This document shows, one piece after another, positions 9,847 through 53,311 of a stretch of 56,755 nt of DNA. The stretch comes from Desulfoscipio geothermicus DSM 3669 (GTDB lineage Bacteria; Bacillota; Desulfotomaculia; Desulfotomaculales; Desulfallaceae). Location: contig NZ_FOYM01000024.1 of NCBI RefSeq assembly GCF_900115975.1, forward strand, positions 1 through 56,755, written 5' to 3'. The notes beneath the pieces are model-generated. The model did no database searches. It saw only the letters and a program-made list of their open reading frames with translations, and had not been told where the DNA came from. A program made the position numbers and the translations under genes. Every line of letters starts with the position of its first letter. Position 1 is the first letter of the stretch.

Positions 9847-10200
9847 ATGCACAAAAAAAAGTTTATAAAAGACAATAAAGAATACAGAAAAGTGTACAGG
9901 GAAGGCATATCGCTGGCCAATCGTTATGCCGTGCTTTATGCGTGTAAAAACACTTTAACCACAAAGCGGTTTGGATTTTCCGTCAGTAAGAGAATAGGTA
10001 AGGCCGTGGTTAGAAACAAGATAAAAAGGCGGCTGAAGGAAGTATGCAGAATACACGGTGACTGGTTTGCCGATGGTTATGACTATATTATCATCGCCCG
10101 CAGGGGTATTGATGAATTGTCCTTTAATTCGGTAAAAAATAATTTGGAAGACTTGGCGTACAGGATAAATAAAAAGATTATAAGGGAAAATCGGTTATGA
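9847..10200 (+). CDS. rnpA: Ribonuclease P protein component
   Basis: 117 residues, normal length. This is the protein cofactor of RNase P, which trims the 5' ends of tRNA precursors. The RNR signature is seen in [14 protein letters not shown], with [10 protein letters not shown] just before it. No strong ribosome-binding site is visible before the ATG. The stop overlaps the start of yidD (ATGA). Confidence 0.95.
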
Positions 10201-10403
10201 AAACTATATTGATTGGTTTGATAAAAGTTTACCAGATTTTTATTTCCCCGCTGAAGGGTCCGACCTGTCGATTTTACCCCACATGTTCCGAATACGCGGT
10301 TCAGTCATTGGTAAAATATGGATTTTGGAAAGGGTCTTTAAAGGCAGTATTCAGGTTATTGAAATGTCATCCTTTTAACCCGGGAGGGTATGATCCTGTA
10401 TAA
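10197..10403 (+). CDS. yidD: Membrane protein insertion efficiency factor YidD
   Basis: 68 residues with the family hallmark [15 protein letters not shown] and the ending [11 protein letters not shown]. YidD is a small, membrane-associated protein that assists YidC-dependent insertion. It overlaps rnpA by four bases and is followed directly by yidC. Confidence 0.95.
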
Positions 10404-10444
10404 TAATGCCTGGTTATCAAGAGTTGTTACAGGGAGGCGATGGT

Positions 10445-11116
10445 TTGGGAGAATTGTTCCAGTCACTGGTTAATGCCATGACTTCTTTGACACACTGGCT
10501 GTATGAATTGACGGTATCGGTAGGTGTGCCCAGTTATGCTTTAGCCATTATTATTTTAACCATATTGATTAAAGTGGTGTTGTTTCCGTTAACGCAAAAG
10601 CAAATGGTATCTATGAAAAAAATGCAGAAAATCCAGCCCAAGATTAAAGAAATACAGGACAAATACAAAAACAAGGACCCGCAGAAAATGCAGCAAAAAA
10701 TCATGGAAATGTACAGGGAAAACAATGTCAATCCCATGGCCGGATGCCTGCCCATATTAGTGCAAATGCCTATTCTTATCGCATTATATCGTTCTTTATT
10801 GCATATTGAATTTTTAAATAATGAACATGCCGGCTTTTTATGGATTACTACCTTGACGGATAAGGATCCGTACTTCATTTTGCCGCTGCTTGCCGGTATT
10901 ACCACGTTTATGCAAACCAAATTAACGACTTCCACCACGGACCAAACCCAGCGCATGATGCTGTATATGATGCCCGTATTTATCACCTGGATCAGCACGA
11001 CAGTGCCGGCGGGGTTGGTGTTATACTGGGTAACGTTCAATATTCTGGGGTTTGCGCAGCAATTGCTGGTAAATAAACAAGTTGGGCAAGTAAAGGAGGG
11101 TGCTCCTTCGAAGTGA
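10445..11116 (+). CDS. yidC: Membrane protein insertase YidC/SpoIIIJ
   Basis: 223 residues from a TTG with GGGAGG seven bases upstream; an in-frame ATG at 10406 would add 13 residues but has no ribosome-binding site. YidC inserts proteins into the cytoplasmic membrane. The first conserved membrane segment is SYALAIIILTILIKVVLFPL, followed by the charged loop KKMQKIQPKIKEIQDKYKNK and further segments ending in VPAGLVLYWVTFNILG. A Firmicute-type short insertase without the large periplasmic domain. The stop overlaps the GTG of jag. Confidence 0.94.
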   Translation: MGELFQSLVNAMTSLTHWLYELTVSVGVPSYALAIIILTILIKVVLFPLTQKQMVSMKKMQKIQPKIKEIQDKYKNKDPQKMQQKIMEMYRENNVNPMAGCLPILVQMPILIALYRSLLHIEFLNNEHAGFLWITTLTDKDPYFILPLLAGITTFMQTKLTTSTTDQTQRMMLYMMPVFITWISTTVPAGLVLYWVTFNILGFAQQLLVNKQVGQVKEGAPSK

Positions 11117-11733
11117 ATTACGTGGAAAAAAGTGGTAAAACCGTGGAAGAGGCAGTGGAAAACGCACTCAGGGAAATTAATTTAACCAGGGATGAAATTG
11201 AAATAGAGGTTCTGGAGGAACCCAGCAAAGGGTTGTTTGGTTTTATTGGCGGCAGGCCGGCGCTGGTGCGGGTCAAACCAAAGGAAACGCCGGCCCGGCA
11301 AGCCAGGGCACTACTGGAGAAGGTAATGCAAACAATGGATTTGGACGTGGATATTGATGTAATAGAAAAGGATGAAAAAATATTAATTAATATAAACGGT
11401 CCCGATCTTGGTATATTAATCGGTAGACGTGGAGAAACTTTAGATGCGTTGCAGTACCTGGTGAATTTATCCGCCAACAAAAATACCGACAAGCGCAAGC
11501 GAATATTAATAGATATTGAAGGTTACCGCAAGCGCCGGGAAGATACGCTGAAAAAGCTGGCTTACAAACTTGCCGACAAGGCCAAACAGCGAGGGCGCAA
11601 TGTTATCCTGGAGCCTATGAATTCAATGGAGCGGAGAATCATACACACGGCATTGCAGGGCAGAGATGATATTTATACATTCAGTGAAGGCGAGGAGCCT
11701 TACCGAAAGATAATTATCGCACCCAAAAAATAA
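11113..11733 (+). CDS. jag: RNA-binding protein Jag/KhpB (SpoIIIJ-associated)
   Basis: 206 residues in three parts: Jag-N (VEKSGKTVEEAVENALREI, then KGLFGFIG), a KH domain with the GxxG loop ILIGRRGETLDALQYL, and an R3H domain with ERRIIHTALQ. It binds RNA and in relatives is linked to cell-wall and division control. The GTG start overlaps the yidC stop and AAGGAGGG lies upstream. A terminator follows, closing the operon. Confidence 0.95.
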   Translation: MNYVEKSGKTVEEAVENALREINLTRDEIEIEVLEEPSKGLFGFIGGRPALVRVKPKETPARQARALLEKVMQTMDLDVDIDVIEKDEKILININGPDLGILIGRRGETLDALQYLVNLSANKNTDKRKRILIDIEGYRKRREDTLKKLAYKLADKAKQRGRNVILEPMNSMERRIIHTALQGRDDIYTFSEGEEPYRKIIIAPKK

Positions 11734-11738
11734 TATGC

Positions 11739-11775
11739 AAAAAAACCCAGCCCGGTATCCCGTGCTGGGTTTTTT
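11739..11775 (+). terminator. Terminator after jag
   Basis: AAAAACCCAGC (11741-11751) pairs with GCTGGGTTTTT (11764-11774). The A and T tracts on the two sides suggest it also works in the reverse direction. Confidence 0.85.
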
Positions 11776-11795
11776 AGAAATTTCGGGGGTAGGTT

Positions 11796-13178
11796 ATGCT
11801 TGACGATACCATTGCCGCTATTTCCACGCCGCCGGGTGAAGGTGGAATCGGTATAGTAAGGATTAGCGGACCGGCAGCAGTAGAAATCGCGCAAAAAATT
11901 TTTCGCCCGGCCAAAAAAAATAACTGGCAAAAGCAAACTTTTCGGTTGGTGTACGGGCATATTTACGACCCGGGGGACGGACAAGTAATTGATGAAGTAT
12001 TGCTGGGCATTATGCGCGCCCCCCATACATACACCAGGGAAGACGTGGTGGAAATCAACTGTCATGGCGGGGCGCTGCCATTGCGAAAAACCCTGGAACT
12101 GGTATTGGGCGTCGGGGCCCGTCCGGCCGAACCCGGCGAGTTCAGCAAGCGCGCTTTTTTAAACGGGCGGCTGGACCTGGCCCAGGCGGAATCAATAATC
12201 GATGTTATCAGGGCCAGAACCGGCGACGCGCTGCGCTTGGCCGTCGGCCAGCTGTCAGGCGGACTGTCAAAAAAATACGCGTCGATTCAGGAAGAATTGC
12301 TGGCCATGACTGCTCTTATTGAAGCCAATATTGATTTTCCCGAGGACGAGGTGGAAGAATACAACCTGGATGAAATATACTCACGCGCCGGAAAGATGGC
12401 CGGTGAAATACAAAAATTGATTGACGGCGCGGAAACTGGTAAGGTGTACCGGGAGGGAGTGCGTACAGTTATAGCCGGTAAGCCCAATGTGGGAAAATCA
12501 TCTTTATTGAATGTTTTATTGCGGGAAAAAAGAGCCATAGTTACGGATATACCGGGCACTACCAGGGATATTATCGAGGAAATTTTGAACATCGGCGGGG
12601 TTCCTTTAAAAATTATCGATACCGCGGGCATTCGGGATACTGAAGATATTATAGAAAAAATCGGAGTGCAAAAAACCAGGGAAAGTATCAAGGGGGCTGA
12701 CCTGGTTATTCTGGTTATTGACGCGTCCAGCGGAATAAGCGATGAAGACCGGAAAATCATTGATCTGGTGAAGGACAAGCAGGGCATTAAGGTGATGAAT
12801 AAGATTGATATAGTTGAGAATGATGAAAACCGGCGATATATTGATGCTGTGCTTCCGGAATGGCCCTTGGTGCGGGTTTCCGCTACCGAGGAAAAAGGCA
12901 TAGAACAGTTGGAAAAGGAGATAGTGGAAGTGGTTACCGGTGGAAGGATCATACCGGCGGATGGAGCTATGGTTACCAATGTACGGCACAAACTGCTGTT
13001 AAAAAAGGCGCTGGATCACTTAAAAGAGGTGCGGGCAGCTGTAGAAAACCGAGTGCCTCTGGACTTGATTGCCATAGATGTGCGAAGCGCATGGGAAGCG
13101 GTGGGTGAGATAACAGGCACCGTAACCACGGAAAATATTATCGATAAGATTTTTGCCGATTTTTGCATCGGAAAGTGA
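11796..13178 (+). CDS. mnmE: tRNA modification GTPase MnmE
   Basis: 460 residues. MnmE and MnmG together add carboxymethylaminomethyl groups to wobble uridine. The N-terminal tetrahydrofolate-binding domain starts MLDDTIAAISTPPGEGGIGI. The G domain has GKPNVGKSS, TDIPGTTRD, DTAGIR and NKID. The C-terminus is the required CIGK. GGGGGTAGG lies just upstream of the ATG. mnmG follows three bases later. Confidence 0.97.
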   Translation: MLDDTIAAISTPPGEGGIGIVRISGPAAVEIAQKIFRPAKKNNWQKQTFRLVYGHIYDPGDGQVIDEVLLGIMRAPHTYTREDVVEINCHGGALPLRKTLELVLGVGARPAEPGEFSKRAFLNGRLDLAQAESIIDVIRARTGDALRLAVGQLSGGLSKKYASIQEELLAMTALIEANIDFPEDEVEEYNLDEIYSRAGKMAGEIQKLIDGAETGKVYREGVRTVIAGKPNVGKSSLLNVLLREKRAIVTDIPGTTRDIIEEILNIGGVPLKIIDTAGIRDTEDIIEKIGVQKTRESIKGADLVILVIDASSGISDEDRKIIDLVKDKQGIKVMNKIDIVENDENRRYIDAVLPEWPLVRVSATEEKGIEQLEKEIVEVVTGGRIIPADGAMVTNVRHKLLLKKALDHLKEVRAAVENRVPLDLIAIDVRSAWEAVGEITGTVTTENIIDKIFADFCIGK

Positions 13179-13181
13179 GGG

Positions 13182-15101
13182 ATGGACTTGGAATACCTGG
13201 CCGGTCAGTATGATGTGATAGTTATCGGCGCCGGTCATGCGGGTTGCGAAGCCGGTTTGGCGGCGGCGCGCATGGGCATGAAAACACTGGTACTAACTAT
13301 AAATATGGAAAATATAGGAATGATGCCTTGCAACCCGGCCATGGGTGGTCCGGCCAAGGGACAGTTGATCAGGGAGATTGATGCCCTGGGCGGTGAAATA
13401 GGTTTGAACACCGACCGGTCGGCCATTCAAATGCGTATGTTGAATACGGCCAAAGGACCGGCGGTGCAGGCACTGAGGGCCCAGGCAGATAAAAATATAT
13501 ATCATGTAAATATGAAATGGGTACTGGAAAATCAACCTAATCTGGATGTCAAGCAAGTAACGGTAGAAAAAATTTTGGTTAAAGGGGAGCGGGTGGCCGG
13601 TGTTGTGGGCCGGACGGGGGCGGTTTTCAAGGCGCATGCGGTAATAGTAACCACGGGGACGTTTCTAAGGGGACGCATTGTCATTGGCGACCTGGCCTAT
13701 CCCGGTGGTCCGAGCGGTAATTTTTCGGCAATAAAATTATCGGAAAGTTTACAGGATCTGGGTTTTAAATTAGGCCGGTTTAAAACGGGTACGCCGGCCA
13801 GAGTGGACCGGCGCAGTATTGATTTTAATAAAATGACTATTCAGCCGGGGGATGACCGGATATACAATTTTTCTTTTATTTCAAGCATAAAGCAAAGGGA
13901 ACAAATACCTTGCTGGTTGACTTACAGTAATGAGCAAACCCATGATATAATCCGGGAGAACTTGCATCGTTCGCCGCTGTACAGCGGTTTTATCGAGGGC
14001 ACCGGTCCGCGATACTGCCCGTCAATAGAGGATAAAGTGGTAAGATTTGCGGACAAGCCCGCCCACCAAGTTTTTGTAGAGCCCGAAGGAAAAAAGACCA
14101 ATGAAATGTACGTGCAGGGTATGTCCACCAGTTTGCCGGAAGATGTACAGATGGCCATGCTGCGGACATTGCCGGGGTTGGAAAAGGTGGAAATTGTACG
14201 TCCCGGTTATGCCATTGAATATGATTACGTGGTGCCGAGCCAGTTGAAACTGACATTGGAGACAAAAGCTGTCAAAGGGTTGTTTACCGCCGGACAAATC
14301 AATGGCACCTCCGGGTATGAGGAGGCTGCGGCCCAGGGATTAATTGCCGGAATTAACGCGGTGTTGTATATAAAAAATAATGAACCGTTTATAATTTCCC
14401 GTTCCGAGGGGTATATCGGTGTGTTAATAGATGATCTGGTCACAAAGGGGGTCACTGAACCGTACCGCTTATTAACTTCCAGGGCTGAATACCGTTTGAT
14501 GTTGCGTCAGGACAATGCTGATCTGCGGCTTACAGAGCGAGGCTACCAGGTGGGACTGGTTTCGGCGGAACGTTACGGCAGGTTCATTAAAAAGCGCCGG
14601 GCTATAGAAGAAGAAATTGAGCGTCTTGAAAAGACCGTAGTACCGGTGGGACCGGAGTTGAAAAACGTATTGGAAAGAGCTAAATCGGCCCCGTTGCAGG
14701 GCGGTATTAAACTGGCCGCCTTATTGAAAAGACCCGAGATAACCTATCGGGACATAGAAGATTTACCGCTTGAACATCCCAATCTTGATGAAGATGTCAA
14801 GGAAGAAGTGGAAATACAAATCAAGTACGCGGGCTACATTAAAAAACAGGCGGCACAGATTAATAAGTTTGAAAAAATGGAAAATATGAAAATACCGCCG
14901 GATATTGACTACGGCAAGGTACGAGGGCTGGCGGTGGAAGCAATGCAAAAACTGGACAAGGTAAGACCGGTTTCCATTGGGCAGGCATCGCGCATATCCG
15001 GGGTTAACCCGGCTGATATTTCGGTATTATTAATTCACCTGGAACAAAATAAGCGCCAACAAACAACTGGCGGCAGCGCGAAAGATGATAGCCATGCATA
15101 A
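13182..15101 (+). CDS. mnmG: tRNA uridine-5-carboxymethylaminomethyl modification enzyme MnmG
   Basis: 639 residues, the normal length. FAD-binding partner of MnmE. The dinucleotide-binding motif is [19 protein letters not shown], then [13 protein letters not shown] and GTFLRGRI, which are typical of the family. The ATG at 13182 is used; a TTG two codons later has better spacing from GTGAGGG and may be the true start. It overlaps rsmG at its 3' end. Confidence 0.97.
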
Positions 15102-41183: not shown

Positions 41184-42254
41184 ATGCCTAAAATTGTCAC
41201 AGTTGTAGGAGCAAGACCGCAGTTTATTAAAGTGGCTCCGGTTTCCAGGGAATTGAGACGCTTTCATCAGGAAGTGCTGGTGCATACCGGGCAGCATTAT
41301 GATTATCTGATGTCGGAAGTATTTTTTGTGGAATTGGGTCTTCCACGCCCGGATTATCATTTGGGGGTTGGTTCAGGTTCACATGGCCGGCAAACCGCCG
41401 GAATGCTGACTGCTCTGGAGGATGTTTTTTTAAAAGAAAAACCGGACTGGGTACTGGTATATGGAGACACTAATTCAACTTTGGCCGGTGCCATTGCAGC
41501 AGTAAAACTACACATCCCGGTGGCTCATATAGAAGCCGGTTTGCGAAGCTTTAACAGGAGAATGCCTGAAGAAATTAACAGAATCGTAGTAGATCATATA
41601 GCAAACATACTTTTTTGTCCTACTGAAAATGCAGTAGCCATGTTGGCCCGGGAAGGTGTCACGGAAGGCGTTCACTTCGTGGGGGATGTTATGTATGATG
41701 CTATTTTAAGTTTTACGCCAAAGGCCGATCAAAGTGACATATTAACCAGGTTGGGTATTGAACCGGGTAAATACTGGCTGGCCACAGTGCACCGGCCGGA
41801 AAATACGGACCGGCCCCAAAGGCTTGAGAGTATTTTAGGCACCCTGTCCGAACTCGGAATACCTGTAATATTGCCGCTGCACCCCCGCACCGCCAAGAAA
41901 ATTATTGAATTTTCTCTTACTTCTTTACTAAAAAACTTCGGAGTTATTGAACCTGTTAGTTATATAGAAATGATAGCTCTGGAAAAAAACGCGTGCGGTA
42001 TATTTACCGATTCCGGCGGTATGCAAAAGGAGGCCTATATTCTCGGGGTCCCCTGTATAACTTTAAGGGATGAAACGGAATGGGTAGAGACGGTGAAAAG
42101 CGGGTGGAACATGCTGGTTGGGGCGAACCCGGAGTTGATAAAGCAAGCCGTCCGGCAATTTCACCCCCGGGGACCCAGGCCGGCTGTTTTCGGCCGGGGA
42201 AAAGCCGGCCTGGAAATTGCCAAATTGTTGTTGGGGGATGACTATGCAACATAA
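41184..42254 (+). CDS. wecB: UDP-N-acetylglucosamine 2-epimerase family protein (WecB/WbpI)
   Basis: 356 residues. Motifs: VTVVGARPQFIKVAPVSREL, HTGQHYDYLMS, VYGDTNSTLAGAIAAVKLHI, HIEAGLRSFNRRMPEEINR and TDSGGMQKEAYILGVPC. WecB makes UDP-ManNAc; WbpI in the same family inverts C2 of the diacetamido uronate. The position after WbpA/B/D/E-like genes favours the WbpI role, giving the mannuronic form. Its end overlaps the next gene. Confidence 0.9.
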   Translation: MPKIVTVVGARPQFIKVAPVSRELRRFHQEVLVHTGQHYDYLMSEVFFVELGLPRPDYHLGVGSGSHGRQTAGMLTALEDVFLKEKPDWVLVYGDTNSTLAGAIAAVKLHIPVAHIEAGLRSFNRRMPEEINRIVVDHIANILFCPTENAVAMLAREGVTEGVHFVGDVMYDAILSFTPKADQSDILTRLGIEPGKYWLATVHRPENTDRPQRLESILGTLSELGIPVILPLHPRTAKKIIEFSLTSLLKNFGVIEPVSYIEMIALEKNACGIFTDSGGMQKEAYILGVPCITLRDETEWVETVKSGWNMLVGANPELIKQAVRQFHPRGPRPAVFGRGKAGLEIAKLLLGDDYAT

Positions 42255-44628
42255 TATTTGGATAATCAATCACTATGCCGTACCCCCTCAACTACCGGGG
42301 GGAACCAGGCATTACGAGTTTGCAGCGCAACTGGTTGCCCGGGGTTATGCGGTAACCATCTGGCTTTCATTATTCCACCACGGGATGCGGCAGTATGTTG
42401 ATAAAACCTTGCGTAATCAGATTAAAAACGATTTACCCGGTAATTTAACCTTTAACTGGGTGTGGTCATTGTCCCATACCGGTAATGATTTGCGCCGGGC
42501 CCTCAATATGCTTACCTTTTTTATGCTGGTGCTTTTGCGGGGCCTTTTTGCGCCGGCACCGCAGGTTGTTATTGCTTCCAGCCCCCATTTACTGGCCGGT
42601 CTGGCGGGATGGGTTCTGAGTAAAGTTAAAAGAAGCCGATTTATTCTGGAAATACGGGACGTTTGGCCTGACAGCCTCGTGGTGGTGGGAATAAAGGAAA
42701 GCTCTCTAAACTATAAAATTTTTTACCGCTTGGCGCATTTTTTGTACCGAAAAAGCCAGCGCATTATTGTATTGACGGAAGGTATTAGGGATACGCTGGT
42801 GCAGCAAGGGGTTGACGAGAAAAAAATTGTTTTTATTCCCAATGGAGTGTCTCTCAACTATTTACAGCAAACAGAAAGCATTGAAGAAACCAGGCATAAG
42901 CTGGGCTTTGGCAACAAATTCGTTTGCCTTTACGCCGGCGCGCACGGGCCCGCCAACGCGCTGGATACAGTCCTGGATGCAGCCGGGTTGGTGGGTAATA
43001 ATAAAGAAATTTTAATTGCGTTAATGGGCGATGGTCCCGATAAACCAAAATTACAGGCCAGGGCCCGGGAAATGAACTTAAAAAATTTAATTTTTTTGGA
43101 TCCTGTGCCCAAGAGCGCAGTGTTGCAGGTGTTGCAGGCGGCAGATGCCCTTATTTTATCCTTAAAAAAAGACAAAATGTTTGAAGGGTCCAGGCCGAAC
43201 AAGTTTTTTGATTACCTGGCAGCAGGCCGGCCAGTCATCTGCGCTGTGGAAGGTGAAGTCAGGAAACTGGTGGAAGAGGTCGGGGTAGGAATATTTGCCC
43301 GTCCTGAAGATGGGGAAAATTTGGCTGCTGCGATAAATCAGATATATATTAACCGGCATGAAATGACTGCCAGGGCATCCAGCAACGGCCCTTCGTATAT
43401 TAAAAAGCACGCGAGCCGGGAAAAGATGACTGATATTTTGGAAAAGGCCATTACCCAAGATTGTGACGGGGTAGATGAAAGCCCGGCTGTATTTATTATG
43501 ACTGTACATCGCTGGGATGACCCGCGAATTTATTATAAGCAAGCCCATTCCCTGGCCCGGAAGTACCGTGTAGAATTGCATGCTCCGGGGACTGGTAAAC
43601 CTTTTGAGCGGGAAGGGGTCAGGGTTGTGCCCCTGCCCCAATATGGCAACCGGTATTTTCGCCCGCTCAATTGGGTGCGGCTGTTTTATCGTGGCTGGCG
43701 TACCCGGGCTAAAATCATTCACCTGCACGACCCGGAATTATTACCGCTGGGCTTCATTATCAAGATTTTGTTCAAGAAAAAAATTATTTATGACGTCCAC
43801 GAAAATTTTGCCGCCACAATGGAATATAAGACATGGGTGCCCGCTTGTATGAGACCTGTTTCGGCTACGATATTGGGGGGGGCGGAAAAATGGTTTGCCC
43901 GGCGGGTTGATGCATTGGTACTGGCTGTTCCTTTTTTAAAGGAATTGTTCGCTGGTTGCGCTATGCCCAAGACAGTTGTTTGCAATTACCCCCTGTTAAA
44001 TCAAATTCCCGGGCCAAGGGAACATAAGCGAACCAATATTTACAAAATAATATATGCCGGAGGTATTTCCAAACCCCGCGGTGCGGTCCAGATGGTGCGC
44101 GCCCTTTCCCGGGTGAACTGGCAGGGTAAAGACTTCAGGCTATATCTCGTGGGGCCCTGTCAACCCCACTCGTTTCGAAAGGAGTTAATTGATTTAGCCG
44201 TGGGTCTGGGTATGGCGGATAAAATGGTGTTTACCGGCCTTCTGCCACTGGAGGAAGTGTATAAACATTATTCTGATGCGGATTTGGGCCTTTCTCTGTT
44301 ACACCCGGAAAAAAACTATATCAATTCCCTTGCTACAAAAATATTTGATTACATGGCAGCCGGTCTACCGGTAGTGGCCTCGAATTTCCCGCACTGGATA
44401 GAACTGGTGGAAGGCAATAAGTGTGGAGTGAATGTTAACCCGGTTGACGAAATTGCCATAGCCAGGAATATTGAAATATTAATTCATGACATTAATCGCC
44501 GTAATACAATGGGCATCAACGGCTACAGGGCATTTATTCTAAAATACAACTGGCGCACGGAAGAGCGGAAACTATTGAGCCTGTATGACAATTTATTACT
44601 GCCTGGCGGGGGAAATAAAAATGAATAA
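42244..44628 (+). CDS. Tandem fusion of two GT4 glycosyltransferases
   Basis: 794 residues, twice the normal GT4 size. The first enzyme (1-400) begins IWIINHYAVPPQLPGGTRHY and has LEIRDVWPDSLVVVG and GSRPNKFFDYLAAGRPVIC, resembling the WbuB group. The second (about 412-794) begins VFIMTVHRWDDPRIYYKQA and has HLHDPELLPLG, YDVHENFAA and LATKIFDYMAAGLPVVASN. No stop or frameshift lies between them. GGGGG precedes the ATG at 42244. Each domain probably adds one sugar on the cytoplasmic lipid-linked repeat unit; sugars are not predictable. Confidence 0.88.
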   Translation: MQHNIWIINHYAVPPQLPGGTRHYEFAAQLVARGYAVTIWLSLFHHGMRQYVDKTLRNQIKNDLPGNLTFNWVWSLSHTGNDLRRALNMLTFFMLVLLRGLFAPAPQVVIASSPHLLAGLAGWVLSKVKRSRFILEIRDVWPDSLVVVGIKESSLNYKIFYRLAHFLYRKSQRIIVLTEGIRDTLVQQGVDEKKIVFIPNGVSLNYLQQTESIEETRHKLGFGNKFVCLYAGAHGPANALDTVLDAAGLVGNNKEILIALMGDGPDKPKLQARAREMNLKNLIFLDPVPKSAVLQVLQAADALILSLKKDKMFEGSRPNKFFDYLAAGRPVICAVEGEVRKLVEEVGVGIFARPEDGENLAAAINQIYINRHEMTARASSNGPSYIKKHASREKMTDILEKAITQDCDGVDESPAVFIMTVHRWDDPRIYYKQAHSLARKYRVELHAPGTGKPFEREGVRVVPLPQYGNRYFRPLNWVRLFYRGWRTRAKIIHLHDPELLPLGFIIKILFKKKIIYDVHENFAATMEYKTWVPACMRPVSATILGGAEKWFARRVDALVLAVPFLKELFAGCAMPKTVVCNYPLLNQIPGPREHKRTNIYKIIYAGGISKPRGAVQMVRALSRVNWQGKDFRLYLVGPCQPHSFRKELIDLAVGLGMADKMVFTGLLPLEEVYKHYSDADLGLSLLHPEKNYINSLATKIFDYMAAGLPVVASNFPHWIELVEGNKCGVNVNPVDEIAIARNIEILIHDINRRNTMGINGYRAFILKYNWRTEERKLLSLYDNLLLPGGGNKNE

Positions 44629-47119
44629 AAGTTATAAATATATTTTACTGACAATTTTAGCAATACTGACGTTTTGTATAATAATTTCGTTCTTAAACGG
44701 GGCCGATCCCCGGGTGACGGCCCTGTTATTGCTGATGACACTGGTATTCCTGGGACTTTTGCTTCCCAAAGAATATATAATCATTACAGCTATATTCCTG
44801 ATTCCTCTGGCTCCCCATACCAAGTTGTTCAGTGAAAACTTGCCTGCAATGACCATAGAACTACCTTTTGCAGCAGTGTACGGGATAATGTTTTTGTACC
44901 CTGCCATGAAGCGGGCCGGGCAATTGAAAGGGCTATGGCTTCTGGTCGGGTGCTGGGGTATTTTTTCCATCCTGGTTGTGCTTAGCTGGAGGCATGCCGG
45001 CAGTAAAAATGCTAACGAACTGTTTGCCGTTAATCACTTTGCTTTTTTGGGCGCCCTCCTTGTCATGGCGGCAGCCGTCTATACAAATGATTTTGATTTT
45101 AAAAAGGTATGCCGGGCTTTTTATACCGTGGCGTTTGTAGTAGCTCTGATTGGATTGTTCCAGTATTTGTTCTTCCCTCACTTTATTAACGACCTGTATA
45201 TTAACGCTTATATGAAATCAGGGATGGACTCGGGTTACTACGGGCGGATTTATGACAGAGCGCTTTCCACATTCGGTAATCCCCATACGCTGGGTTTGTT
45301 TCTGGGCATTATTTTAATGTTTGCAACGGGCAGTAACTTCTGGGGATTTACAAACAGGTGGACTAAATATGCCTGGATTGTAACTTTGCTGTCAGTTATC
45401 ATCCTGACCCGTTCACGTACAACTTTTATTTGCTTGGTTTTGGGTTACTTATTTTTAATTTGTTTTAGAAGGTACGAATTGAAAAAAATCATTTATACCC
45501 TGGGGACTCTGGCTGCAATATTCGGCATAATAAACCATTATTTGCGAGACAACTGGATTGACAAATTGCTTAACTATGATATGTCTTTGCATGCCCGGTT
45601 TGTTAGATGGGATATGGCATTGGACCGCTTTATGTCATCACCGGTTTTTGGTGTGGGGCCAAATCCCAATATAAGAATCGGCAACGATATGTCTTCAGTG
45701 CCGATCGACAATATATATTTTACGGTTTTAGCTTCTTATGGCCTTTTAGGTACAGCCGCTTTAGCGTTAACCCTGTTTATTATTTTTTACCAGTTAATCA
45801 AACTGGCCAACTTTGATTTTAGATCCAAAAATATTGCGTTGGGGCTCGGGTGCAGCTTACTTATGCTGTTAATTGGCAATCTGAGCGGAGATTTTCTGTT
45901 CCATCCAAAGGTTATGGGCCCATACATGTTACTCTTGGGCTGCTTTATGGTTGCAGGTCAAATAAAAACCGGCGGGCCAACGAAAATACTGATTGTGGGT
46001 AATGCCAAAAGCATTCATATACAACGCTGGGGTACATCACTGGCGCAAAAAGGATTGTCGGTGCATGTGCTTTCCCCGGAAGCGCATGTTGTGGAAGGCT
46101 GTTCGGTACATGTGATCAAGGGGGCATCATTGTCTGTGCTGTCGCCGGCTGGTATGTTAAGCTTTGTCAGCAGGTTGTTGCAGGTGGAGAAAAAAATAAA
46201 AGTGGTTGATCCCGACCTGGTGCACATCCACGGCGCTTTTTCATTCGGCTGGTTTGCCGCATCCTGTAAAGGAAGCCCGGTTATTACCAGCACATGGGGC
46301 AGTGACATATACCGGTATGCCGGTGCTTCGCGGTTGAAATACAAGGTGGTTAAAAGCATCCTAAAAAGGTCGGATGTTGTGACAGTGCATAACAGGCAGA
46401 TGGCGGATTATGTAGAGGAAAAATTTGGGGTATCCAAATGTTTTGTCTTACCATGGGGAATCGAAGACCGGGTTTTTAGGTTGGAAGATCACAAAGGGGC
46501 GGCCAATATTAGAGAAGCGCTGCAGGTCCCGGAGGCAAACAAAATTGTACTCAGTCCCCGTGGGATGACTCCTCTTTACAATATTGAAGTGATAATAGAA
46601 GCTATTCCGCTGGTGTTAAGGTCTGATAAGCACGTTACTTTTTGTTTTGTGCGGGGTGCCGGAAGCGCCGCATATGAAGCCCGAATGATGCAAAGGGCAT
46701 TAAAATTAAAAGTGAACGACCACATACGGTGGATCAAGAAATTTCAAACTTCTGAACAGATGGCGGATCTTTACAGGGCATCAAATATCTTTATCAGCAT
46801 ACCGGAAACCGACAGTTCAGCATTGACCATCGCCGAGGGTTTGGCATGCGGCAGTATCCCGGTGCTTAAAAAGTTGATAACCTACCGGTGTTTTTATGAA
46901 ACCGGGGCGGTTATATATACCGTGTCTGATTTGACACCTGCAAATCTGGCCGCTGTGGTTAACGAGGCGTTGAAAAAAGATGCCCGCGAAATAAGGGCTA
47001 TAAACGCGGCGGCGGCGGCTTCCCTGGGTACATGGCGAAATGCGGTAAGCAGAATGGTAGAGTTGTATGAGAGTATTCATGCCGGGCGGCAGGTGAAAGG
47101 GGTTAGACAGGTTGAGTAG
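44621..47119 (+). CDS. O-antigen polymerase/ligase (Wzy-like) fused to GT4 glycosyltransferase
   Basis: 832 residues. Residues 1-447 form about ten to twelve membrane segments with the Wzy/WaaL (PF04932-like) pattern: STFGNPHTLGLFLGIILMFA, VTLLSVIILTRSRTTFICLV and the HARFVRWDMALDRFMSSPVFGVG region. Residues about 453-832 are a GT4 domain: ILIVGNAKSIHIQRWGTSLA, DLVHIHGAFSFGW, STWGSDIYRY and IPETDSSALTIAEGLACGSI. The frame is continuous. The ATG at 44621 has GGGGGAAA upstream and overlaps the preceding gene. Polymerase faces the outside, so the GT part should be in the cytoplasm. Confidence 0.87.
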   Translation: MNKSYKYILLTILAILTFCIIISFLNGADPRVTALLLLMTLVFLGLLLPKEYIIITAIFLIPLAPHTKLFSENLPAMTIELPFAAVYGIMFLYPAMKRAGQLKGLWLLVGCWGIFSILVVLSWRHAGSKNANELFAVNHFAFLGALLVMAAAVYTNDFDFKKVCRAFYTVAFVVALIGLFQYLFFPHFINDLYINAYMKSGMDSGYYGRIYDRALSTFGNPHTLGLFLGIILMFATGSNFWGFTNRWTKYAWIVTLLSVIILTRSRTTFICLVLGYLFLICFRRYELKKIIYTLGTLAAIFGIINHYLRDNWIDKLLNYDMSLHARFVRWDMALDRFMSSPVFGVGPNPNIRIGNDMSSVPIDNIYFTVLASYGLLGTAALALTLFIIFYQLIKLANFDFRSKNIALGLGCSLLMLLIGNLSGDFLFHPKVMGPYMLLLGCFMVAGQIKTGGPTKILIVGNAKSIHIQRWGTSLAQKGLSVHVLSPEAHVVEGCSVHVIKGASLSVLSPAGMLSFVSRLLQVEKKIKVVDPDLVHIHGAFSFGWFAASCKGSPVITSTWGSDIYRYAGASRLKYKVVKSILKRSDVVTVHNRQMADYVEEKFGVSKCFVLPWGIEDRVFRLEDHKGAANIREALQVPEANKIVLSPRGMTPLYNIEVIIEAIPLVLRSDKHVTFCFVRGAGSAAYEARMMQRALKLKVNDHIRWIKKFQTSEQMADLYRASNIFISIPETDSSALTIAEGLACGSIPVLKKLITYRCFYETGAVIYTVSDLTPANLAAVVNEALKKDAREIRAINAAAAASLGTWRNAVSRMVELYESIHAGRQVKGVRQVE

Positions 47120-48973: not shown

Positions 48974-49045
48974 CTTTTTTCATCTCTCTGATTGTGCCGC
49001 ACAAGCGGCATGGGGATCTACCAACAAATTGGAGGTCTTGTTAAA

Positions 49046-49591
49046 ATGGGGCAGCGTGGAGTTACGGTGTGGTTTACCGGTTTGAGCGGTGCGGGTAAAA
49101 CAACTATCAGCCGGGCAATGGAAAAAGAGCTGCGGGTCAGGGGTTTAAATGTCGAAGTTCTGGATGGCGATATGTTACGCAGGAACCTTACCAGGGGGTT
49201 GGGATTTACCAAAGCGGACCGGGATGAAAATATCCGGCGCATAGCTTTTGTGGCCCGATTACTAACACGCAACCAGGTGATTGTGTTGGTTTCGGCCATT
49301 TCCCCGTACCGTGCGACCCGTGATGAGGTGCGGCGGGTGATAGGTGACTTCGTAGAGGTTTATGTCAATGCTCCCCTGGAAGTTTGTGAACAGAGGGACG
49401 TAAAAGATTTATACAAAAATGCTCGTGCGGGTAAGATCAAGTGTTTCACAGGGATTGACGATCCCTATGAACCGCCGCTTAACCCCGATGTGGAGTGTCG
49501 AACGGACCGGGAGAGCGTGCAGGAGAGTATGCAAAAAGTCATGCAAAAATTGGAATTATTGGGTTACGTTAAGCCGGTGGGGAGGTCCTGA
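49046..49591 (+). CDS. cysC: Adenylylsulfate (APS) kinase
   Basis: 181 residues from the ATG with GGAGGTC upstream; the frame is open further up without homologous sequence. Walker A is [20 protein letters not shown], followed by [21 protein letters not shown] and the [13 protein letters not shown] segment, all typical of CysC. It phosphorylates APS to PAPS. The stop overlaps the start of a sulfotransferase gene, so PAPS is most likely made for sulfation. No ATP sulfurylase is in the window. Confidence 0.93.
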
Positions 49592-50595
49592 TGCATAAAC
49601 CAATTTTCCTTCTCGGAGCGCATAAATCCGGAACCAGCTTGCTCCGCTCGTTATTTGACGGGCATAAAGATGTTTTTGTAGTTCCTATAGAGGCCCACTT
49701 TTTTCAACATATGAAATGGTGGGTTGATTATTCTTTAAGAAGAACGGTGCCTGCAAAACTGACTCTGGATCAATTTATAATCAATATTAAGGCCTGGGTA
49801 AAGCATTACAATGAATCTGAAGATTATCAAGCCGATAGTGTTGCCAGGGGAATATTTAACCTCCGGCGTTTCAATGATTATGTCGAGGAGTTTATCAATA
49901 CCGCCCCCGGCCGGGTGGGCAATCTTTTTAATGTTGATACAGGTACCTTGTTCAAGGTTTATGTTAAAGCCATTCACTATTCAATCTACGGCTCAAGACT
50001 GCCGGAAACCGGGAGAATAGTGGAAAAGTCCGTTGAAAATGTGGAATTTGCCATGGATTTACAAGCAATGTTTCCCGATGCTGTTTTTATACACATAGTT
50101 AGAAATCCATATGCCAACCTGGTGTCCATCAGAAAATATATGACTAAGGATCATTACCCCAAATTAAGGCCCATATATAAGTCGTTATATAATTCCTATT
50201 ATTTTTTATACAGAAACCGTCGGTTAATAAAAAATTACTTGGTAATTAAATATGAAGATTTAGCTCAAAATCCGGAACCTGTAATTAAACATATTTGTGA
50301 TGTTGCGGGGTTGGAATTAACACCATCCATGTTTGAACCTACATTTATGGGTAAACCGTGGAAAGGTAACAGCACTTCGCCGGAGCAGTTTAAAGGCATA
50401 TCTCCGAATCGCATTAACACCTGGCAAAGTGAAATTGCCCCGCTGGAAGTGGAGTTAATCAATAAATATCTTAGGCACGTTGTTGAGGAGTTTGAATATG
50501 GTGTTTTTAAGATGAAGAAATCGGTTTTTATTCCTGTAAGAAAAGAGTCTTTAAAGGCATACATTGCAAACCGGTTTTTATGGTGCGCCGGTTAA
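49591..50595 (+). CDS. Sulfotransferase family protein
   Basis: 334 residues. The PAPS 5'-phosphosulfate loop is seen in FLLGAHKSGTSLLRSLFDGH and the 3'-phosphate site in FIHIVRNPYANLVSIRKY, with the later LVIKYEDLAQNPEPVI typical of sulfotransferases. Its start overlaps the cysC stop and GGGGAGGTC lies upstream. It probably transfers sulfate from PAPS to a sugar hydroxyl of the polymer repeat; the site is unknown. Confidence 0.88.
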   Translation: MHKPIFLLGAHKSGTSLLRSLFDGHKDVFVVPIEAHFFQHMKWWVDYSLRRTVPAKLTLDQFIINIKAWVKHYNESEDYQADSVARGIFNLRRFNDYVEEFINTAPGRVGNLFNVDTGTLFKVYVKAIHYSIYGSRLPETGRIVEKSVENVEFAMDLQAMFPDAVFIHIVRNPYANLVSIRKYMTKDHYPKLRPIYKSLYNSYYFLYRNRRLIKNYLVIKYEDLAQNPEPVIKHICDVAGLELTPSMFEPTFMGKPWKGNSTSPEQFKGISPNRINTWQSEIAPLEVELINKYLRHVVEEFEYGVFKMKKSVFIPVRKESLKAYIANRFLWCAG

Positions 50596-50645
50596 AGGTT
50601 GTTTCAAACAGCCTTGCCGGGTGAGTTTCTTATGTGGAGGCTCGT

Positions 50646-52631
50646 ATGGGAAGTCTGGGTTTGCGTAAATTATTTATTAACATTGGTGGAACATTAGCGC
50701 GTCAAATGACTGCGGTTTTACTGGGCATATCTTTGGTGGTATTATTGGCACGCGCTCTGGGGCCGCAGGGTAACGGTACGTACGCTATGACCATCCTGCT
50801 CCCGACCCTGCTTGCCAATCTCTTAAACCTGGGCATTCCTTCAGCCAATGTTTATTATATCGGCCGGGGCAGTATTTCAGTGTATCATGCTTTTAAAACG
50901 AATATCCGGCTTTGGTTGTTTTTAAGCGGTCTGGGCGTGTTACTGGCTGTGCTCGTTGTCTGGGTGGGGGGCGAAGCACTTTTTCCGGGTGTTCCGAAAA
51001 TTTTTTTATGGCTAACTTCATTATTGATATTTCCCATGGCGTTGTTGCAATTTTTGTTAACCAGCTTGCTGCAAGGAGTGCAGGATTTCCGGCGGTTTAA
51101 TCATGTATTACTGGTAGCGCCCGCTGCTACATTGCTGCTCGCCGTTTTAACGGTATGGTTGTTTGACCTTGGAGTAGCCGGGGCGCTTACGGCTTTTGGC
51201 TTGGGTTATTTTTTGGGGTTGGTTTTTTCTATATATGCCGTTCGGACATATTTGCACGACAAAAGCAAAAGTACGCCACCCCCCGATTATGCCGGACAAT
51301 GCATTGGTTACGGCTGGAAAGCACATTTAAGTAATATTCTTACTTTCATCAACTATAGGACCGATATCTACCTGGTCAACCTTTTTCTGAACCCGGCTTT
51401 CACGGGTATTTATGTCATTGCGGTGCAAATCGCGGAACGGTTATGGATGTTATCCCAGTCGGTCAGCACTGTTATTTTGCCCCGGTTATCCGAACTGCAC
51501 CGTGATGAGGAAACCCGCAAGCGCCTTACACCCATTGTAGCGCGGTGGATTTTTATGGTGACGGTCGTTGCGGGAGGAACCCTGGCTCTATTCGCCAGTC
51601 CCCTGATTAAGCTTTTATTCGGCGCAAAATACCTGGCCGCCGCCGGTGCTTTGCTATGGTTGCTGCCGGGAATAGCGTTTACCAGTTTTTCAAGAGTTCT
51701 TGCCAATGATTTGGCCGCACGGGGCCGGCCGGATTTAAATATGTATGCGGCCTGTCTGGTCGTTATAGTAAATGTTATAGCCAATATAGTACTGATTCCC
51801 CGGATGGGCATAAACGGTGCTGCTTTGGCCACGACCATAGCATATACGGTTAATGCAGTTGTTAAGTTTTATTTATATGCCCGTTTGAGCGGGAATCCTT
51901 TGTGGCAGGTGATTGCCTTCAGTCGAGCTGATAGGGAGCTGTTGGCAAACGGAATAAATTCCTTTCGCAAACTGTTCGGTGGTTCGTTAAGTGCGGGGCA
52001 ATTAATAAAATCCGCCAATACGAACAGAAGATATAAAAGATGTATGGATATTTTTTTTTCATTAATTTTTATTATAGCTGCCCTGCCCTTGATGGTTTTA
52101 ATTGCCATGGCTATTAAATTTGAAACCGGTGCACCGGCAATATTTATCCAGGAACGGGCCGGTTTACAGGGGAGACCTTTTAAAATATATAAATTTCGCA
52201 CTATGCTCAGAGATTTTGTTTCAACGGGCCAAAATTATGCTGATGAAGAAAAAAGGATTACCCGGGTGGGCAGGTTATTGCGGTCCACAAGTTTAGATGA
52301 ACTGCCCCAGCTTTTTAATGTATTAAAAGGTGATATGAGCCTGGTGGGGCCTCGCCCGACTCTGCTTTACCAGGTTGAAAAATATTCCGACGGGCAAAAA
52401 AAGCGCCTGGATGTACCCCCGGGCATGACCGGATGGACCCAGGTGAACCGGGGTGAATGTTTCTCCTGGGAAGAGCGAATAAAAATGGACATTCACTATA
52501 TCCAAAACTGGTCCCTTGGGCTGGATTTTAAAATATTATGGATGACTGCAGGGGTAATGCTGAAAAAACGAGTTGCCTGGGTGGACCAGTCTGATGACAG
52601 GATAGCCCGGATACCTACTGATGAAAGTTAA
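50646..52631 (+). CDS. Wzx-like flippase fused to initiating phosphoglycosyl transferase
   Basis: 661 residues. Residues 1-435 are a 12-14 segment MOP-superfamily flippase ([40 protein letters not shown]). After a linker, residues about 457-661 are a WcaJ/PglC-type phosphoglycosyl transferase: [20 protein letters not shown] membrane segment, FKIYKFRTM, the catalytic pair in [24 protein letters not shown] and [13 protein letters not shown]. The frame is continuous. The transferase would load the first sugar phosphate onto undecaprenyl phosphate, while the flippase exports the finished unit. GGAGG lies five bases before the ATG. Confidence 0.88.
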
Positions 52632-52648: not shown

Positions 52649-53311
52649 TTGAAAAAGCTTGTTGTGGTAGGCGCCGGCGGGTTCGGGAGGGAAGTATTGC
52701 AACTCGCGATGCACCAAAACAAAATGACACAACAATGGAATATAATGGGTTTTGTTGATGATAACAGAAAGTTGCAAGGAAAGACAATCAACGGATTTCC
52801 CGTACTTGGGGACATTGACTGGCTGGCTGCCAATGCCGGCGATAAATATGCCGTTTTTGCTCTGGGCGAACCCAAGCTTAAAAGAAAGGTTGAGAAACGT
52901 TTGCAAAAATCGGGGATTCGTTATGCCACCCTGATTCATCCTTCGGCGGTTATGGGAGATTTTATTGACATACGGGAAGGAACCATTATTGCCGCCGGAG
53001 TGGTATGCACGGTAAATATTAAGATCGGTAAACACGTAATTATAAACCTTAATTGTTCCGTCGGTCATGATGTAGTAATTGGAGATTATGCAACCATCGC
53101 ACCTGATGCCAATGTCATGGGTGAAACCAGCATTGGGGAAGGATGCTATATTGCCAGCGGAGTCACTGTCAGGGACGGTGTGAACATCGGTCAAAACACC
53201 ATCATTGGTCTTGGTGCCGTGGTGGTTGGCAATCTTCCGGGTGATGTTGTTGCCCTGGGCTGCCCGGCTAAAGCGGTGCGGGAAAATACTGGCGGCAAAG
53301 TTTTTAAATAA
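52649..53311 (+). CDS. NeuD/PglD family sugar O/N-acetyltransferase
   Basis: 220 residues. An N-terminal nucleotide-sugar binding part starts KKLVVVGAGGFGREVLQLAM and a left-handed beta-helix follows (ATLIHPSAVMGDFIDIREGT, NLNCSVGHDVVIGDYATIAP). Such proteins acetylate amino sugars such as UDP-4-amino-bacillosamine precursors. It stands beside the PglC-like transferase, which fits a bacillosamine-like first sugar. The TTG start has GGGGGGA upstream. Confidence 0.87.
   Translation: MKKLVVVGAGGFGREVLQLAMHQNKMTQQWNIMGFVDDNRKLQGKTINGFPVLGDIDWLAANAGDKYAVFALGEPKLKRKVEKRLQKSGIRYATLIHPSAVMGDFIDIREGTIIAAGVVCTVNIKIGKHVIINLNCSVGHDVVIGDYATIAPDANVMGETSIGEGCYIASGVTVRDGVNIGQNTIIGLGAVVVGNLPGDVVALGCPAKAVRENTGGKVFK

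Follow-up and report, generated by a model that had tools for sequence, protein, structure and literature searches.

Does one polypeptide of Desulfoscipio geothermicus DSM 3669 carry both a Wzx-type flippase and the phosphoglycosyl transferase (PGT) that starts a lipid-linked repeat unit and, if so, what could the join be for? The question was raised by a sequence-only reading of a 56,755-nt stretch of contig NZ_FOYM01000024.1 (hereafter, the window), which described the two as complete domains of one protein. Coordinates given without a locus number refer to the forward (+) strand of the window.

A Single Reading Frame for Flippase and PGT

The fusion gene (50646..52631) is one open frame of 661 codons plus stop, running from an ATG at 50646 to a TAA at 52629-52631, with full-length orthologues in two other genomes. 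By direct reading, a Shine-Dalgarno-like GGAGG (50636..50640) lies five bases upstream of the ATG; a GTG in frame with the gene occurs at 50634. The Wzx-type MOP flippase domain (residues 1-425; 50646..51920), delimited by Pfam and by the match of the predicted fold to WzxE (9g9n_A), is followed by a divergent, in-frame linker (residues 426-462; 51921..52031) and by the small monotopic PGT domain (residues 463-646; 52032..52583), assigned by Pfam Bac_transf, by the fold of PglC (8e37_A) and, in sequence, by 8g1n. The codons for the catalytic pair Asp551-Glu552 (52296..52301) lie in an LDELP motif, and the pair is present in all 19 PGT-bearing rows of alignment A6.

The claim of one polypeptide holds, both by the single frame and by the same frame in the two other genomes, at 66-67% identity. 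The transferase is complete as described, with all 179 positions of the Bac_transf profile and the Asp-Glu pair; for the flippase, completeness was borne out by Pfam and the WzxE fold, while its size, given as about 435 residues, is put here at about 425.

Direct reading shows nine consecutive Ts (52051..52059) where the PGT membrane helix is encoded, a possible slippage site that is interrupted in both orthologues (codons of residues 469-470). A slip at this run would turn off the PGT half alone.

The Join Is Conserved in Two Further Genomes

The MAGs Desulfotomaculaceae bacterium STE_194 (G091; 669 codons) and STF1_190 (G092; 668 codons) also carry the fusion as one frame, 67% and 66% identical over residues 1-654. 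They belong to the same order as D. geothermicus, although to another family, and both orthologues have the same Pfam domains as the D. geothermicus fusion. Since both MAGs come from one sampling project, we count them as one additional lineage; they differ from each other at about 9% of the residues in each domain. Our own Nei-Gojobori estimates for the D. geothermicus gene against each of the two orthologues gave dN/dS values of 0.095 and 0.131 for the flippase (424 codons) and of 0.078 and 0.104 for the PGT, values that are only rough because synonymous sites are near saturation (pS 0.66-0.73 in both domains). Both domains are under purifying selection.

The 37-residue linker is only 26-28% identical to those of the orthologues; every gap spans whole codons, and none of the three genomes has a stop in it. 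As the linker has drifted with its frame kept while synonymous sites neared saturation, the join must have been in frame over a long time. The junction at 51950-52020, which the sequence-only reading had proposed to resequence, falls within this linker and is in frame without a stop in all three genomes. The Wzx-PGT join is thus confirmed as real and as conserved under selection on both halves.

The D. geothermicus genome holds other PGT and flippase genes: a PGT (44% identical) and broken flippase pieces (24-33%) in contig C34, and a PGT (43%) in contig C79. We considered these as a possible unfused wzx and pgt pair in the same strain and rejected them, as they are distant paralogues belonging to other loci. 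The frame of the C34 flippase gene (L050 16456-17669) is broken at a run of nine Ts ending in TAG and continues in another frame; the identical break occurs in another genus (G008, L159), within 10.5 kb at 89.7% DNA identity, and could reflect a shared pseudogene, slippage or phase variation.

Predicted Structure of the Whole Protein

A first model, built from a 34-row alignment, folded residues 1-440 well and the PGT badly, because it contained too few PGT rows. The second, from 24 rows (three fused proteins, five flippases and 16 PGTs), reached a mean pLDDT of 86.2 and a pTM of 0.66, with just two segments of pLDDT below 50, one in the linker (445-455) and one at the C-terminal tail (644-661); alignments A4 (PGT rows placed on the flippase) and A8 (lower PGT identities) were excluded from folding. 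At this pTM and linker pLDDT, the relative placement of the two domains is of low confidence. The structure of residues 430-470, proposed as a check on the junction, could be predicted, with very low confidence at 445-455. No PGT chain is among the best 50 VIA rows for the model (Foldseek ranks PglC first), and a viral fold library gave no match below E 0.001.

A Putative Wzx-Type Exporter

In Pfam, the flippase half matches Polysacc_synt_3 (PF13440; residues 33-332, E 1.8e-15), MurJ (PF03023; residues 127-426, E 3.1e-13) and, above cut-off, PF01943 (residues 14-285). VIA-align superposes WzxE of Escherichia coli (PDB 9g9n, chain A) on the model over 401 residues (Z 34.7, rmsd 3.5; model 11-418, WzxE 6-416), and Foldseek gives a TM-score of 0.79 on the target. 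Matches to export-family profiles and the MOP fold thus both place this half in the Wzx/MOP group. The two proteins have the MOP fold in common but are only 21% identical, and WzxE stops at its tail, whereas the fusion runs on into the PGT. For the lumen arginines of WzxE, the profile alignment, at low identity, is informative at the level of the whole profile only. Polar residues that are nearly invariant in the flippase alignment include R36 and K225 (each in 33 of 34 rows) and D240 and E264 (each in 32 of 34). From sequence and model, this half is probably a Wzx-type exporter, putatively flipping lipid-linked repeat units.

A Small Monotopic PGT Close to PglC

Bac_transf (PF02397) covers residues 464-640 (E 7.4e-66; profile positions 1-179 of 179). 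The top Foldseek match to the model is PglC of Campylobacter concisus (8e37_A; TM-score 0.85 on the target, 44% identity over 185 columns), and the closest solved PGT by sequence is also PglC (8g1n, E 1.4e-43). The PGT half keeps the motifs KFRTM, LDELP, GPRP (568-571) and PG.TG as well as the membrane-helix proline P481, which stands in all 18 rows printed of the PGT alignment. We take the Asp-Glu pair, the GPRP motif and the reentrant-helix proline to have functional roles in small monotopic PGTs. A full-length catalytic domain, these motifs and the PglC-like fold agree in placing the half in that class. It resembles PglC in fold and sequence, and its motifs are those of its PGT relatives, but PglC is a stand-alone enzyme, whereas here the PGT makes up the C-terminal end of a protein that begins as a flippase.

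The architecture of the large PGTs (WbaP, WcaJ) is absent: residues 1-425 are flippase, and the NCBIfam scores for large PGTs fall below cut-off (TIGR03025, 272.5 bits versus 295.55; TIGR03023, 241.3 versus 410.75). Both have membrane helices ahead of the PGT domain, but in large PGTs, as described in the accessible text of PMC10942596, these form a four-helix bundle accompanied by an extra domain, while the fusion has a whole flippase at its N-terminus. On sequence and model, we predict that both domains of the fusion are probably active.

A Rare Fusion of Single Origin

The fusion, carried by a handful of related anaerobes, is rare in the genomes searched. The pair of flippase and Bac_transf domains, whose frequency the sequence-only reading had left to be established, was found in three of 113 genomes of the class, three rows covering both halves among the matches listed; among all matches from the other 15 genomes of the Desulfoscipio family, none covers both halves. 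At E 1e-25, the flippase half is matched in five of the 113 class genomes, three times by the fused proteins (100, 69 and 69% identity) and twice by unfused flippases (28 and 30%; frames of 449 and 479 aa). A collection of 84,980 species supplied 52 flippase relatives, 44 of them with a flippase frame recognised by BLASTP; two of these 44 are fused, namely those of the two MAGs, and the remaining eight loci (L102-L109), with no BLASTP match to the flippase half at 1e-6, stand outside the count. The nearest unfused flippases, from a Phycisphaerae MAG (58%), a Euryarchaeota MAG (56%) and Desulfoferrobacter (53%), stop 5-16 residues past the flippase match. That the halves are normally separate proteins is therefore borne out in the family, in the class and among the unfused relatives.

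In a flippase tree of 34 rows (alignment A5: D. geothermicus and 33 of the 52 relatives, omitting L079, L081, L093-L096 and L098-L110), the three fused proteins group together as a single clade (support 100/99), and one change suffices for the fusion label. The tree indicates that, among the sequences compared, the fusion arose once. In samples of the phylum, PF02397 (E 1e-40) gave 99 matches over 101 genomes with no other frame of 600-900 aa, and the flippase profile (E 1e-12; best four candidates per genome scored) at least 95 rows over 398 genomes with no other frame of at least 600 aa, counts that detect fusions by frame length, a crude test that diverged, independent fusions could escape. 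None of 1005 matching plasmid records and none of 39 matching phage records spans 80% of the query; no flippase relative was confirmed on viral contigs, and a single-sequence scan of genome contigs for the fusion gave nothing.

Six other long PGT frames of the class were followed up. Those in G007 and G018 are large PGTs (521 and 608 aa) with CoA_binding_3, and that in G085 is a PGT-PglD fusion; BLAST with both fusion domains found no flippase in the PGT frames of G016 and G024, and among ORFs of at least 400 aa, G034 yielded only a 413-aa aminotransferase.

In some flippase relatives, the PGT gene lies several kilobases off (L058, a Sulfitobacter plasmid; also L069). In L058 (Sulfitobacter pontiacus plasmid; 9955-13320), an unfused flippase, 42% identical, follows a sulfotransferase, from which a single glycosyltransferase gene separates it; the locus also holds a sulfate adenylyltransferase/APS kinase, and its separate PGT gene is 9.5 kb from the flippase.

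A Polysaccharide Locus with Further Fusions

Two other fused genes stand upstream in the window: a GT-GT fusion of two GT4-type glycosyltransferases (42244..44628; two stretches each of four Pfam families, start set by eye from the orthologue) and a Wzy-GT fusion of a Wzy_C polymerase/ligase with a GT4-type glycosyltransferase (44621..47119; Pfam, start set by eye). As one frame, Wzy-GT occurs in three of the 113 class genomes (E 1e-20), the same three as Wzx-PGT. The GT-GT frames of the two MAGs are 62-63% identical to that of D. geothermicus; the G092 copy is cut by the contig end, and the G091 match extends past the stop of a 785-aa ORF. Frames covering both GT halves, at 28%, are also found in G085, G086, G087 and G088.

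In G091 the order is WbpE, GT-GT, Wzy-GT, GT4, PIG-L, Wzx-PGT, PglD, GNAT and PIG-L, and D. geothermicus has the same order as the orthologous loci except for a two-gene insert between the first PIG-L and the fusion, present only in D. geothermicus among the three genomes. The insert consists of an adenylylsulfate kinase (48992..49591; Pfam APS_kinase, 1.3e-64) and a sulfotransferase (49591..50595; Pfam Sulfotransfer_3, 3.3e-24), and D. geothermicus likely makes a sulfated version of the same glycan. Among the 52 flippase loci, a sulfotransferase was hit in L068, L093 and L094 and an APS-kinase-type gene in L079, L081, L099 and L101; as raw counts, these suggest at most a weak tie of the flippase clade to sulfation. 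Directly downstream of the fusion gene are a PglD/NeuD-type sugar acetyltransferase (52649..53311; NCBIfam TIGR03570, above cut-off) and then a GNAT. Further genes of the locus encode an LCP-type ligase, glycosyltransferases, a Wzy_C protein and two PIG-L deacetylases. Of its sugar-nucleotide genes, a UDP-sugar dehydrogenase and WecB score above curated cut-offs, a PglF/PseB-like dehydratase and an aminotransferase below them.

PGTs are also joined to other partners elsewhere. In G085, of the same family as G091, a PGT is fused to a C-terminal PglD-type acetyltransferase (L115 52-1353). Two giant proteins of 1580 and 1706 residues, in G204 and G166 (L171 54-4796 and L172 953-6073), combine a glycosyltransferase domain with a C-terminal PGT behind a long N-terminal part that has no Pfam match and looks membrane-bound by eye; in their frames (1657 and 1712 aa), Pfam finds no flippase domain.

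Relation to Known Bifunctional PGTs

Bifunctional PGTs (Bi-PGTs) are a recognised class, described in the accessible text of PMC10942596 as carrying a second functional domain at either end of the PGT domain; Neisseria PglB, a PGT with an acetyltransferase, is one (PMC11130364, accessible part). By its domain content and conservation, the D. geothermicus protein would belong to this class, a PGT catalytic domain and another functional domain being united in one chain. The partners named in those sources (acetyltransferase, ATP-grasp) serve sugar synthesis, an earlier step, whereas the fusion pairs the PGT with the protein that exports the completed unit, placed at the N-terminus.

A 2015 model of Salmonella O-antigen synthesis has Wzx help to bring the initiating PGT (WbaP) and the ligase (WaaL) together, and the same source, as far as its available text goes, counts only the Wzy-Wzz interaction as confirmed (PMC4863624). 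The fusion is akin to that model in that Wzx is a go-between for the initiating PGT; the model is a hypothesis on separate proteins, whereas the fusion joins two of its members covalently. Among the titles and abstract openings listed from the open-licence PMC literature, we found no Wzx-PGT fusion. PGT fusions to other enzymes are thus already known and the flippase partner is apparently new, without our claiming priority.

A Proposed Role for the Join

We consider it probable, from sequence and model, that the protein is a bifunctional Wzx-PGT of a Wzx/Wzy-type polysaccharide locus, of single origin, which would provide the two activities in a fixed ratio and in one place. The C-terminal PGT would start the repeat unit at the cytoplasmic face by loading undecaprenyl phosphate with a sugar-1-phosphate taken from a UDP-sugar. 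The donor may be UDP-N,N'-diacetylbacillosamine, a guess based on PglC being the closest relative of solved structure and on the PglD-type gene downstream. The unit would be extended by glycosyltransferases, separate or fused, and then flipped by the N-terminal Wzx domain. The fusion itself would have been made by the joining of adjacent or newly juxtaposed genes, and then retained.

The topology appears to permit such a join. According to the available text of PMC11706664, WzxE has its C-terminal tail at the entrance to the lumen on the cytoplasmic side; a cluster of arginines there is required for function and has been suggested to capture the pyrophosphate. As the alignment to WzxE ends at model residue 418 (WzxE 416), that is, where WzxE itself ends, the PGT would hang on the flippase's C-terminal tail at that entrance, so that the enzyme making the pyrophosphate-linked sugar would be attached to the very tail proposed as receiver of the pyrophosphate. 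The earlier suggestion that start and export are placed at one site in the membrane agrees with the covalent join and with a PGT that begins some 45 residues past the last WzxE-aligned residue, and we infer that both steps are co-located at a fixed ratio. Most likely, the join would serve to fix a 1:1 ratio and to hold the start enzyme at the cytoplasmic opening of the flippase to which it is attached, whereby undecaprenyl phosphate, which is scarce, would be spent only in the presence of an exporter. That the state of the flippase gates initiation is speculation. Further still goes the idea of a covalent assembly line, in which GT-GT, Wzy-GT and Wzx-PGT join steps pairwise and the flippase gates the tethered PGT, a unit being started only after the last has been flipped; we regard this as unlikely.

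We take PssL to be the flippase of Rhizobium. In a Rhizobium two-hybrid screen, the PGT made contacts only as the C-terminal part of the test fusions (PMC9860679, available text), so a blocked PGT N-terminus seems to be tolerated. Its partners named there are four glycosyltransferases and not PssL, although this was tested (PMC9860679), which, by analogy and as far as that text goes, would speak against a general tight contact between PGT and flippase.

Alternative Explanations

The unconserved linker and the flippase relatives with separate PGT genes argue against functional coupling, and a rare fusion of single origin could be neutral. Both domains would then work, and the join would have no functional meaning: two products that share a membrane and a pathway would have tolerated the loss of the stop between their genes. 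The divergence of the linker and its partly very low model confidence suit such an operon fusion, as do the single origin and narrow range; moreover, neighbouring genes are fused too and G085 has its PGT-PglD fusion, so such operons may simply fuse genes often. Against this, separate lineages have retained the frame over a time in which synonymous sites came close to saturation, and none of the three genomes has a stop at the junction. We regard neutral fusion as a serious contender, somewhat short of an even chance.

Quite unlikely, in our estimate, is that the gene yields two proteins, an internal start or proteolysis of the linker freeing the PGT. The linkers of all three genomes do share an in-frame TTG at one aligned position (codon 433; 432 in the orthologues), about 30 residues ahead of the PGT domain, and in D. 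geothermicus alone AGGGAG precedes it by three bases; by eye, however, neither orthologue has a ribosome-site-like stretch before the TTG or the ATG. The ATGs themselves are at different places (codon 436 in the orthologues, 467 in D. geothermicus), and a start at the latter would cut into the PGT membrane helix.

More doubtful again is that the flippase domain has lost or reduced transport and acts as a scaffold or regulator, a membrane anchor or sensor for the PGT. It stands N-terminal to the PGT, much as the membrane bundle does in large PGTs, whose four helices may act likewise, and the genome does contain broken flippase-like pieces elsewhere. A flippase dN/dS of about 0.1 over 424 codons and the retention of the near-invariant R36, K225, D240 and E264 speak for a working transporter; in addition, a search of the D. 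geothermicus genome (E 0.001) matched the flippase half only to the two broken C34 pieces, a search that a more distant flippase could escape.

Finally, a sequencing or assembly error fusing two genes, for which one might cite the draft state of the genome and the nine-T run just behind the junction, is ruled out for practical purposes, because two further assemblies show the same join, with 66-67% identity at the protein level and no gaps other than whole-codon ones.

Significance

Units that are started but cannot be exported tie up undecaprenyl phosphate and harm cells, according to the available text of PMC12826051. The GT-PGT giants of G166 and G204 hint that a PGT may be joined to a later step in other proteins too. 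A Wzx-PGT fusion that occurs naturally and is conserved offers a ready system for testing whether the two ends of the pathway form one machine and, if the gated assembly line were true, it would amount to a built-in control of the use of undecaprenyl phosphate.
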